From assembly GCA_025055115.1 (NCBI GenBank), contig JANWYJ010000038.1:1-64000 (forward strand): a stretch of DNA of 64,000 nucleotides, in the 5' to 3' direction. This document shows, piece by piece, positions 4,045 through 7,133 of the stretch. The stretch comes from Gemmata sp. (lineage in GTDB: Bacteria; Planctomycetota; Planctomycetia; Gemmatales; Gemmataceae). The notes beneath the pieces were generated by a model, which saw nothing but the letters and a program-made list of their open reading frames with translations, did no database searches and was not told the origin of the DNA. The first letter of the stretch is position 1. Each line of letters begins with the position of its first letter. Made by a program: the position numbers and the translations under genes.

Positions 4045-4176
4045 GGACATTGGCACCAGCGTGGTTCAAGTCGGTGGAATCCGTGGCTATTGTTCCACAA
4101 GTCCTTTCTCTAAAAAGACTTAAGCACGGACTACTGGCCTTTACCCCGTGAGCAAAATGGCTAAAATAACACCAGA

Positions 4177-5262
4177 ATGAAGACTGCGACGCGATCGCCG
4201 TGGGTACTCTCTGTGAGAACCGCGGCACAACCGCGACAGGACTGCCAATCCTCCAGGCATGAGGCCGACCTGAACGCCCCCTCACTCCACCGCTGGAACG
4301 ACTTCCTGGTACTGCCGGAGAACCGCCTGGCGGTTCGCGCGGTTCGAAGCCTGTGTCGCGCCGTGGAAGCTGGGAAACGTCTTCCCGCCAACCCTCTGGT
4401 TCTCCACGGCTGTCCCGGAACGGGTAAATCGCACCTGCTCGCTGCACTCACCACACAGTTGGCCCGTTCGCCGCAGGGGTTTTCCATCCGCACGGTCGCC
4501 AGTGGTGATCTGGCCCGCACAAGTGAAGACGACGGGGCGGATACCCAGAATTGTGATGTCCTCGCCCTCGAAGATGTTCAACATTTGGACAGCCACTGGG
4601 TGGCCGTGGTTTGTGCTTGGCTCGACCAGCGCTTGGCACGACGGCAAGCAACAATTGTGACAGCGCACGCCGGCCCAGCTCGGTTAACCGAGCTGCCCCG
4701 CCGCTTCACCTCGCGGTTAGCTAGTGGCCTGGTGGTTCAACTGCAACCGTTATCCGTCGCCAGCCGCCGGTTAATTGTCGCGGAGGCGGCGAAGGAGAAA
4801 AACCTGTCTCTGACCGCCGACGCCCTCGATTGGCTGGCTGCCCAGGCTGGTGGTGGAGGCGTTCGTTTGGCCCTGGGCCTGCTCCAGAACGTAGCGCTGG
4901 CTGCTCGGCGATTCCCAGGTCCGTTGGGTCAGGCGGAGGTGGAACGGATTGTGGCGGAGTCAGGCCTGCCGACTTCGTCACAGCCCGATGTGAGCCGGAT
5001 TGTGAAGACGGTGGCCGAAGCGTTTGGTATCAGCCACCAGCAAATACTGGGCACCAGCCGGCTGCCGGGTGTGGTGCGGTCGCGGCAAGTGGCTATGTAT
5101 CTGGCCCGCGAGCTGACAACGCTCTCGCTCCCACGATTGGGCGCAGCGTTCGGCCGGGATCACTCGACCGTGCTGCATGCGTGCCGCAAAGTGGAACAGG
5201 CGATGGGGTGCAATGCCGCCTTGGCTCAGCTCATCCGCGAGTTGCGTAGCCGCTTGCAGTAA
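4177..5262 (+). CDS. dnaA: Chromosomal replication initiator DnaA, short form
   Basis: AAA+ initiator that binds DnaA boxes and opens oriC. Walker A GCPGTGKS is at 78-85, Walker B DVLALEDVQ at 127-135, and the C-terminal DnaA signature around 309-340 includes GRDHSTVLHACRKV. At 361 residues it is about 100 shorter than the E. coli protein: only about 40 residues precede the AAA+ fold, so the N-terminal domain I (helicase and self interaction) is absent. An in-frame TAA at 4162 limits upstream extension, so 4177 is the first possible ATG. TAAAAT at 4162-4167 could be a -10 for a nearly leaderless transcript. It is followed by the candidate oriC, then dnaN, dciA and gyrB. Confidence 0.94.
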   Translation: MKTATRSPWVLSVRTAAQPRQDCQSSRHEADLNAPSLHRWNDFLVLPENRLAVRAVRSLCRAVEAGKRLPANPLVLHGCPGTGKSHLLAALTTQLARSPQGFSIRTVASGDLARTSEDDGADTQNCDVLALEDVQHLDSHWVAVVCAWLDQRLARRQATIVTAHAGPARLTELPRRFTSRLASGLVVQLQPLSVASRRLIVAEAAKEKNLSLTADALDWLAAQAGGGGVRLALGLLQNVALAARRFPGPLGQAEVERIVAESGLPTSSQPDVSRIVKTVAEAFGISHQQILGTSRLPGVVRSRQVAMYLARELTTLSLPRLGAAFGRDHSTVLHACRKVEQAMGCNAALAQLIRELRSRLQ

Positions 5263-5614
5263 TTGAGCCAGGCGACGGTTGGTGGGGTGGGAACAGGGCT
5301 GTGGAAAACCCGGCGCGCCGCTGGCGCGCCTCCGAGAGTTGTTGGCGCCACAATTGCAGAAAGATGGTTTCGCCCCCCCGGGTTTGGATTGGCGCGGCGC
5401 GTTATCACTGCGGCGCGCCAGCGGCGCGCCAGGTTTTCCACAGGTGAAAAAGAGCCGAATGGAGCGAGAAATCCGCACATGCCAGGACGTTGGTGACCGA
5501 ACAACTGAAGACCTTACTGCTACTTCTGGATGTTGACATCAAGAGAAGGAAAGTATTGCAAAGGGCGTTCGACGGGAAAAACCCTCACTCTCAGACGGCG
5601 AAGGAGGACGCGCC
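5263..5614. other. Candidate replication origin (oriC) between dnaA and dnaN
   Basis: A 32-bp inverted repeat has arms at 5299-5330 and 5412-5443 with a single mismatch. Each arm has a DnaA-box-like TTTTCCACA at its outer end (reverse strand 5300-5308, forward strand 5434-5442), and the inner part of each arm contains GGCGCGCC twice. The boxes differ from TTATCCACA at one position. TTGACA at 5533-5538 with TATTGC at 5554-5559 is a weak promoter candidate for dnaN. Position next to dnaA and dnaN supports an origin; no clear AT-rich unwinding element was found, so the call stays tentative. Confidence 0.55.
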
Positions 5615-6748
5615 ATGAAGATAACCTGTCCGCGGGAAAGTCTCCAAATGGCTTGCCAATTGGTATCTGTCGCGGTACCGGCCGCGACGACCATCCCCGC
5701 CTTGAAAAACTTCAAAGCAACGGCCCAAGACGATGCGCTGTTCCTTGTCGCCTACGACCCGACCCAAGGGATTGGCATTCGCTATGAACTCCGCGGCATT
5801 ACGGTGGCGCGAGCGGGGGCGTGCATTCTTCCCAAAGACCAACTGATCGACATTCTCCGCGAAAGCGCCGAGGCCGAAATCAGCATCGACGCGGGTAAAG
5901 AAGCCGTGGTTGCCAAAGTCGGTGGTGGTCGCTTCGAGATGCTCAAGCTCGATGTTGAGGAGTTCCCCGACATTCCCGCATTCGATGCTGGCGGTCACTA
6001 CCACGAAGTTACTGCCGGCACCCTCCGCACTCTCATCAAACGCACCGCCTTCGCTGCGGATAAGAAAGATACCACGGCGAAGTTTGCCCTCAGCGGCGTT
6101 TTGTGGGAGACCGACACCAACAAAGTCCGGCTTGTGGCCACCGATACCAAACGGCTCGCCCTTGGGGAAGGACCGGCCACCCGGGCTGGCACCCCAGGCG
6201 ATGTGAAAGCGGTTCATCTGATTCCCCTGAAAACCGTCAACTTGCTCGAACGCAACCTCACCGACGATAAGGAATTGGTCCGGGTGAGTCTACGGACCAA
6301 CGATGCTTTGTTCCAAACCGAACGAGCGATGATCTACACCTCGCTGGTGCAGGGGAAATTCCCGCCCTACCGCGACATCGTCAGCAAAACCCGTAACGAC
6401 GCCACGCAAACGATCTCGCTGCCGGTGGCGGCGTTTTTAGCACGGGTACGGCAAGCCGCCATTATGACCGACGACGAGAGCAAACGCGTCGATCTGACGT
6501 TCAGCCCCGGGCAACTGACGCTTGAGGCCCGCGGGGCCAACACCGGCTCCAGTCGCGTAGCGCTGGAGTTGCCCGAATACACCGGTCCTGAATGGAAAAT
6601 CGCCTTCGACCCGCAGTTCCTCATCGAGTTCTTGCGGGCCTTAGAAAACGAGCCAACTGTGATTTTAGAAGCCTCCAGCGGCAACCGCGCGGCACTCTTC
6701 CGCTGCGGCGACGATTACTTGTACCTGGTGATGCCGTTGGTGGGTTGA
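5615..6748 (+). CDS. dnaN: DNA polymerase III sliding clamp (beta subunit)
   Basis: Ring-shaped processivity factor that tethers the replicative polymerase to DNA. The start MKITCPRESL is placed by AAGGAGG at 5601-5607, seven bases upstream. The 377 residues match the usual 365-380 and contain the three tandem clamp domains, including the N-terminal A-x-x-x-IPALKNF region and a C-terminal LYLVMPL motif typical of DnaN. It follows dnaA and the candidate origin and precedes dciA and gyrB, an arrangement known from many bacteria. Confidence 0.97.
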   Translation: MKITCPRESLQMACQLVSVAVPAATTIPALKNFKATAQDDALFLVAYDPTQGIGIRYELRGITVARAGACILPKDQLIDILRESAEAEISIDAGKEAVVAKVGGGRFEMLKLDVEEFPDIPAFDAGGHYHEVTAGTLRTLIKRTAFAADKKDTTAKFALSGVLWETDTNKVRLVATDTKRLALGEGPATRAGTPGDVKAVHLIPLKTVNLLERNLTDDKELVRVSLRTNDALFQTERAMIYTSLVQGKFPPYRDIVSKTRNDATQTISLPVAAFLARVRQAAIMTDDESKRVDLTFSPGQLTLEARGANTGSSRVALELPEYTGPEWKIAFDPQFLIEFLRALENEPTVILEASSGNRAALFRCGDDYLYLVMPLVG

Positions 6749-6821: not shown

Positions 6822-7133
6822 ATGAGTGAAGCGAACCAAGGTCCTGAGAAGCTCGCCGATATTCTCGGCCGGTTGTTTACCGCCCGGGGCTGGGGACGCA
6901 AAAGCGAACGGCTCCAGCTTGAATCGGCCTGGGCGGGAGCCATCGGCGAGGAACTGCTCCAGCAGACGCACGTTCTGGGGCTGCGCCGCGGTGTACTCGA
7001 AGTGGCCGTACGCAACGCGGTGCTGCTGCAAGAACTGACACAGTTCCACAAACGCCGCCTGTTAACCAAGCTGCGTGCGGCCATGCCCGGTGTCACGGTC
7101 ACGGATCTGAAGTTCCGCGCTGCCGTCTGGTAG
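6822..7133 (+). CDS. dciA: DciA-type helicase loader (DUF721)
   Basis: Small protein of 103 residues with the DUF721 pattern: a helical N-terminus, WAGAIGEELLQQT, and a C-terminal KH-like fold (LEVAVRNAVLLQEL, then VTDLKFR). Proteins of this family load or assist the replicative helicase in bacteria that lack DnaC or DnaI. The position between dnaN and gyrB is typical for dciA/recF-region genes. recF is missing from this cluster. The ribosome binding site is weak. Confidence 0.85.
   Translation: MSEANQGPEKLADILGRLFTARGWGRKSERLQLESAWAGAIGEELLQQTHVLGLRRGVLEVAVRNAVLLQELTQFHKRRLLTKLRAAMPGVTVTDLKFRAAVW

Follow-up and report, generated by a model that had tools for sequence, protein, structure and literature searches.

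An inverted repeat between dnaA and dnaN of a Gemmata genome is very probably part of oriC and resembles a symmetric, phased variant of an opposed-array origin

Opposed arrays of weak DnaA sites are known mainly from Escherichia coli oriC, with Vibrio cholerae oriC1 as the most similar origin, and both are among the closest known systems to the locus reported here. In E. coli oriC, clusters of four weak sites, 2 bp apart, lie in the R1-R2 and R2-R4 gaps (PMC6070618), and two pentamers face each other on five boxes per side, the two sides being oppositely oriented (PMC10316083). The distance from R1 to R4 is 180 bp, start to start. The search for a Bacillus subtilis-type BUS required three or more trios no further than 16 bp from a DnaA-box (PMC8287927), and in Thermotoga maritima oriC the boxes that are 2 bp apart give most of the DnaA-DnaA complex (PMC10316083). 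A full-text literature search (DoriC, which may list a predicted oriC here, preprints and most subscription papers lay outside its scope) listed, as judged by titles and the openings of abstracts, no paper describing planctomycete origins or a layout such as the one below, and the available part of PMC4403523, on two dnaA genes, names no planctomycete.

The locus is located in a 64,000-nt stretch, hereafter the window, with which contig G000:C33 (122 kb) of a Gemmata sp. genome (4.93 Mb, 100 contigs) begins. The gene order is a class-V aminotransferase gene, a short dnaA, a gap with the inverted repeat, dnaN, dciA and gyrB, with the following coordinates:

4177-5262, plus strand: short dnaA (361 aa), with AAA+ (Pfam PF00308) and domain IV (PF08299); no domain I found
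5615-6748, plus strand: dnaN (beta clamp), with three Pfam DNA_pol3_beta domains
6822-7133, plus strand: dciA (helicase operator), PF05258
7198-9675, plus strand: gyrB, with PF00204, PF00986, PF01751 and PF02518

The preliminary description had placed an inverted repeat between dnaA and dnaN, with arms at 5299-5330 and 5412-5443 that differ by one base, each with the DnaA box TTTTCCACA outermost and two GGCGCGCC units inside, and direct reading confirmed each of these points. The left arm is CTGTGGAAAACCCGGCGCGCCGCTGGCGCGCC, and the reverse-complemented right arm is one base off it (CCC vs CCT before the first unit); both are in the gap between the end of dnaA and the start of dnaN. A repeat finder gave arms of 39 nt with a complementarity of 90% and 67 nt between them. 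When TGTGGAAAANNNGGCGCGCC was searched with zero mismatches, it was found at two places only in the 4.93-Mb genome, which are the two arms, so that the repeat exceeds what chance would give. Upstream of dnaA, at window positions 4091-4099, a TGTTCCACA was observed that is one base off TTTTCCACA, and it is a possible candidate for an autoregulation site. The elements of the repeat and of the DNA that it encloses are listed below, with offsets counted inward from the outer box and proportions of arms (genus-weighted) taken from the relatives:

5300-5308, minus strand: left outer DnaA box, TTTTCCACA by sequence; partner 134 bp away in the window
5311-5319, minus strand: putative left weak site +11, core CGGCG, within the first GGCGCGCC unit; 0.86 of left arms
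5322-5330, minus strand: putative left weak site +22, core TGGCG, second unit; 0.69 of left arms
5343-5351, minus strand: putative left weak site +43, core TGGCG; 0.62 of left arms
5352-5390, no strand: central gap between both arrays, beyond the phased sites; little conserved in the stacked frames
5391-5399, plus strand: putative right weak site +43; 0.60 of right arms
5412-5420, plus strand: putative right weak site +22; 0.57 of right arms
5423-5431, plus strand: putative right weak site +11; 0.71 of right arms
5434-5442, plus strand: right outer DnaA box, TTTTCCACA by sequence; spacing recurs in relatives

DnaA was sought in 59 genomes, the window's own included, and in the family (80 of 95 at E≤1e-25). 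The DNA after the short dnaA was extracted from 80 loci, of which 69 reach dnaN and 11 are without dnaN, and the 69 gaps were scanned for inverted box pairs at any distance with a score of at least 16 of 18. Such a pair was present in 49 of the 69 gaps, and in 0.14% of shuffled gaps. The start-to-start spacing of the 49 strong pairs was 133 bp in 30, 134 bp in 9, 135 bp in 6, 123 bp in 3 and 301 bp in one (G078, where a pair at 133 bp scores equally), so that 45/69 family gaps have outer boxes TGTGGAAAA ... TTTTCCACA opposed at 133-135 bp. No pair of this score was found in the other 20 of the 69 gaps, some of which have a weaker pair at 133-135 bp. The three 123-bp pairs are from a single genus and are about one helical turn below 133-135 bp; a spacing of 123-124 bp, about one helical turn shorter, was noted for the genera g19 (L091, L093, L095, L183) and g15 (L185, L193). 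Within the genus, the typical gap reads TGTGGAAAAC.TGGCGCGCNNNTGGCGCGC ... GCGCGCCANNNGCGCGCCA.GTTTTCCACA, then GTGCGCGCCAGAAA, then CCTTACTACTGCTACTGGATGTTTAAAATAAAGG, and the strict frame TGTGGANAA N123-126 TTNTCCACA was found once per genome in 18 of 19 genus genomes, with 0 matches for the control pattern. The sole genome that misses it, G014, differs at a single base of the right box, and G007 has a second match under a looser frame pattern. A related-locus search in genome contigs with short DnaA confirmed none. The expectation that the boxes would be conserved in relatives was strongly borne out, both by the spacing that recurs in the family gaps and by the strict frame in the genus.

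The phase of the inner sites was counted in 59 frames with a spacing of 133-135 bp from 25 genera, 55 of them from the gap scan (score of at least 14) and 4 from a pattern search; the count excluded pairs with low scores as well as the genera g19 and g15 with their 123/124-bp spacing. These frames had been selected by boxes and spacing, independently of the weak sites. The motif YGNYG was found inward of the outer box, in left/right arms (genus-weighted), at +11 in 0.86/0.71, at +22 in 0.69/0.57, at +33 in 0.60/0.40 and at +43 in 0.62/0.60, with a shuffle null of 0.03 and every other offset at 0.18 or below. Altogether 320/472 slots were filled at these four offsets, and when the offsets were shifted by -6 to +8 only 1-55 were. 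In the window, +11, +22 and +43 are filled on both sides, which accounts for three weak sites per arm, and the +33 YGNYG site is absent from both arms. When frames were stacked by their outer boxes, the genomes without GGCGCGC carried TGTTG/TGTCG-like cores in the same positions. Because YGNYG is phased with the box across the frames, GGCGCGCC appears to be the GC-rich form of a row of degenerate sites that repeat every 11 bp, keep the register of the DnaA box and share its orientation.

The frame has in common with E. coli oriC, and also with V. cholerae oriC1, the inverted strong outer boxes, the weak sites at 11-bp pitch, the two facing oligomers that are proposed and an unwinding element outside the frame (PMC4285127, PMC6070618, PMC10316083). 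Four weak sites per arm and the box orientation, as in E. coli, are found family-wide by sequence, with the window having three per arm. In contrast to E. coli oriC, the Gemmata frame is shorter (133-135 vs 180 bp) and symmetric, its weak sites are uniformly YGNYG, no central R2 was noticed, and no domain I was found in the DnaA encoded beside the window frame. Comparable in T. maritima oriC are the boxes 2 bp apart and the TAG repeats of its unwinding element (PMC10316083); that origin differs in having its five boxes in a single cluster, with one box inverted, and no opposed symmetric arrays.

The motif YGNYG is far from the DnaA consensus, and the unit itself is strongly unlike TTATCCACA. 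Both outer boxes could therefore be DnaA sites while another protein, acting with or against the short DnaA, occupies the phased YGNYG/GGCGCGC sites. Candidates for it are the long DnaA paralogue and some unrelated protein that binds or bends origin DNA. At least two DnaA matches were found in 34 of 37 family genomes (one only in G015, G027 and G033), and the window's own genome encodes a second, longer paralogue with a weak domain I (G000:C62:114290-115207, L039). The long DnaAs read differ in their recognition segment, which is GRDHSTVLHACRKVE (canonical) in the window's short DnaA vs GAKTHSTAVAAEKKV (altered) in the long DnaA of the same genome, a difference that speaks for this alternative. 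In the three long DnaAs scanned, domain I had an E of 0.006 (G000) and 4e-4 (G019), both below the curated cut-off, and 5e-7 (G050), above it; in the window's short DnaA, domain I (PF11638) was not listed at E≤1. A profile of 21 short DnaAs matched 8btg with an E of 2e-67. The invariant columns of these 21 proteins include what we take, from an alignment to solved DnaAs, to be Walker A, the arginine-finger segment and the sensor-2 arginine. Against binding by another protein, the 11-bp pitch in the register of the box and the common orientation favour a DnaA filament. In addition, the sister family f2 (G037-G043) has the long DnaA only in 7/7 genomes, yet upstream of dnaN no box pair above 14 of 18 was found in the 6/6 f2 genomes with a dnaN locus. 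We regard this alternative as unlikely, and the phased sites as probable sites of DnaA.

The distribution of the short DnaA was compared with that of the frame. G027 and G048 have neither a short DnaA nor a frame upstream of dnaN, and in the outgroups G142, G145 and G058 the short dnaA adjoins dnaN with no such box pair. G156 has the long DnaA only and yet a strong box pair, spaced 137 bp, and two frames are present in G066, where no short DnaA was found, so that the link between frame and short DnaA is imperfect. The two frames of G066 (L124, G066:C191:10065-10208, and L184, G066:C409) are each followed by trio-like DNA, and only one is upstream of dnaN; a second origin, a second replicon or a mixed bin are the alternatives for this pair.

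With arms of 32 bp and a single mismatch, the repeat could also act through its symmetry, either as a hairpin or cruciform or as a single-strand initiation site whose stem holds a DnaA box. The linkers of the left and right arms are alike beyond permuted arms (linker 1: 0.83 vs 0.62, genera g1 and g57), but this match is barely above that of the nearest relative (0.83 vs 0.74), and when the permutation was set beside the nearest-relative control, neither a hairpin nor concerted evolution of the arms was established. Outside the genus, 24 or fewer of 32 arm positions are alike in 31 of 42 frames (the lowest value being 15), with spacing and phase kept. Moreover, the second right-hand GGCGCGC unit is at +33 instead of +22 in G063 and G081, which does not suit a stem. 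A box other than TGTGGAAAA was observed in 28/59 frames, and the variant was identical in both arms in only 4 of these 28 (G016, G028, G063 and G077; not, e.g., in G031, G078 and G116). The conserved core of the inverted repeat is the frame and not the palindrome, and a function of the symmetry itself is very improbable.

On the dnaN side of the frame, in the same dnaA-dnaN gap, the window carries two further elements:

5514-5529, plus strand: DnaA-trio run TTACTGCTACTTCTGG, four 3'-GAN-5' units on the opposite strand
5530-5560, plus strand: A/T-rich stretch, putative unwinding element, by sequence

The trio units, CTG CTA CTT CTG, are at 5517-5528 and their number reaches the at least three trios used in the search for a BUS; the run begins 71 bp past the end of the right box. 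At the same place a relative (locus L012) has the A/T-rich sequence ATGTTTAAAATAAAGGATAACAAG. The exact trio motif was in range in 40/55 family frames and absent in 15/55, and 34 of the 40 with the motif have it at 89-92 bp, counted from the right-box start. The remaining distances were 80 bp (window), 79 bp (G017, the closest relative by DnaA), 78, 86, 95 and 96 bp; those of 78-80 bp are about one helical turn below the common value, and 86, 95 and 96 are not. An extra degenerate site was found 61 bp after the right box in 21/55 frames, and at 62 and 63 bp in 6 each. In the window, the 61-bp extra weak site was not evident in 5443-5513, a stretch that falls short of its length in most relatives by about one helical turn.

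This region shares with the B. subtilis-type BUS a trio run with a middle A, followed by A/T-rich DNA, upstream of dnaN, as well as, in many relatives, a degenerate site shortly before the trios. It differs from it in that the consensus box of the window ends 71 bp from the trios, more than 16 bp, with no clear weak site in the place of that degenerate site. It differs from E. coli oriC in that the A/T-rich element of the window is 71 bp off the nearer box, with trios, and not directly beside the outer box. The preliminary description had portrayed the locus as two boxes around GC-rich palindromes, unlike the usual origin, and by implication as lacking an AT-rich element. A better reading of the first part is that the relatives keep a phased row of weak sites in each arm, near the R1/R4 design of E. 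coli. The second part was not sustained: the trios and A/T-rich DNA at 5514-5560 had been overlooked.

The frame is not always found between both genes. In G071 and G024 the frame and trios adjoin dnaN, with the short dnaA on another contig, where the 1.3 kb or 0.4 kb read downstream of it held no frame. G195 shows the reverse, a frame beside the short dnaA with dnaN on a different contig, and in G111 about 1.3 kb separate dnaA and the frame. Since the frame was found with dnaN alone or with dnaA alone, an origin is favoured over a control element of the operon. That the GC-rich inverted repeat, located between both genes, serves transcription of the dnaA-dnaN operon instead, as a terminator, an attenuator or a site of autoregulation, is thus hardly credible, given also that the 67-nt loop carries the phased sites and that no T-run is present past the right arm.

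With a strict class-wide pattern, the frame was detected in 30/297 genomes, all of them in the window's family, and in 0/220 outside it. The reading as a family-only feature that this pattern gave was overturned by looser boxes, with which 6/220 genomes outside the family matched, and by scans anchored at dnaN. In these scans, the DNA upstream of dnaN of 29 genomes from other families of the class was searched for pairs in a range of 40-299 bp. The best or joint-best inverted pair was at 133-136 bp in 12 of the 29 outgroups (families f3, f4, f5, f6, f9, f11 and f14), several of them through ties, and in the remaining 17 it was not. The tie-weighted count at 133-136 bp was 8.3, vs 0.33 in shuffles, and was the top value among all 4-bp windows. 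In these 12 outgroup frames, weak sites filled 25/96 slots at the right phase vs 0-10 at shifted phases.

The GC skew was also analyzed and was uninformative to weak as a guide to the origin. The raw profile of the window gave no signal, and in the relative G016 (9.8 Mb; 40 samples of 20 kb) no switch was observed (two-breakpoint split, permutation 0.76), with the cumulative minimum at 6.64 Mb and the frame at 4.03 Mb. When the third-position skew of G016 was corrected for gene strand, the best grid origins were 4.42, 4.66 and 4.17 Mb, with a difference of only 0.022. The best is 0.39 Mb from the frame, and this very small signal is weakly consistent with an origin near the frame. Gene co-orientation in G016 does not favour the frame, where it is neutral (0.49), and has its maximum of 0.57 at 6.63 Mb.

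The inverted repeat is very probably part of oriC, where chromosome replication begins. The earlier assignment as an origin is well supported by the conserved frame, by the trios and A/T-rich DNA, by the single strict match per genome and by the retention of the frame at dnaN when dnaA is elsewhere. The feature would then be ordinary in kind and place, and its anatomy, as judged from the sequence, that of a symmetric, strictly phased variant of an opposed-array origin. It is probable that this oriC has two opposed weak-site rows anchored by the outer boxes, on which the short DnaA would form two facing oligomers that open the A/T-rich element. From the boxes with their recurring spacing, the phased sites, the trios and A/T-rich DNA, the recurrence in relatives and the linkage to dnaN or dnaA, all of which are read directly from the DNA, we infer that the YGNYG sites are occupied by DnaA, that this is the short DnaA, how large its oligomers become and where the DNA opens. 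The inverted strong outer boxes would anchor the two opposed rows at a pitch of about 11 bp (a 9-mer plus 2 bp) and would be bound by the short DnaA encoded next door. With a strong site and as many as four weak ones in every arm, two facing oligomers nucleated at the outer boxes are proposed; these head-to-tail DnaA oligomers may reach about 5 protomers each. They would guide DnaA onto the trios and unwind the A/T-rich element, which lies some 70-80 bp beyond the right box on the dnaN side, and DciA may assist the arrival of the helicase at the opened element.

Shared origin architecture is hard to see because bacterial origins look so different. A symmetric, 11-bp-phased frame of near-fixed length in several families of another phylum would be a clean natural system in which to test whether origins are generally opened by two facing DnaA oligomers, and it raises the question of which role a domain-I-less DnaA has at the origin beside a second DnaA. 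A tentative proposal for the Planctomycetia is that a rigid, symmetric twin-oligomer scaffold, varied mostly in steps of about one helical turn, might be loaded by the domain-I-less DnaA, and that the domain-I-bearing DnaA might have another job, e.g., helicase recruitment or regulation. If this were true, the opposed-array design of E. coli would be either ancient or convergent, and these bacteria would have a division of labour between two initiators.
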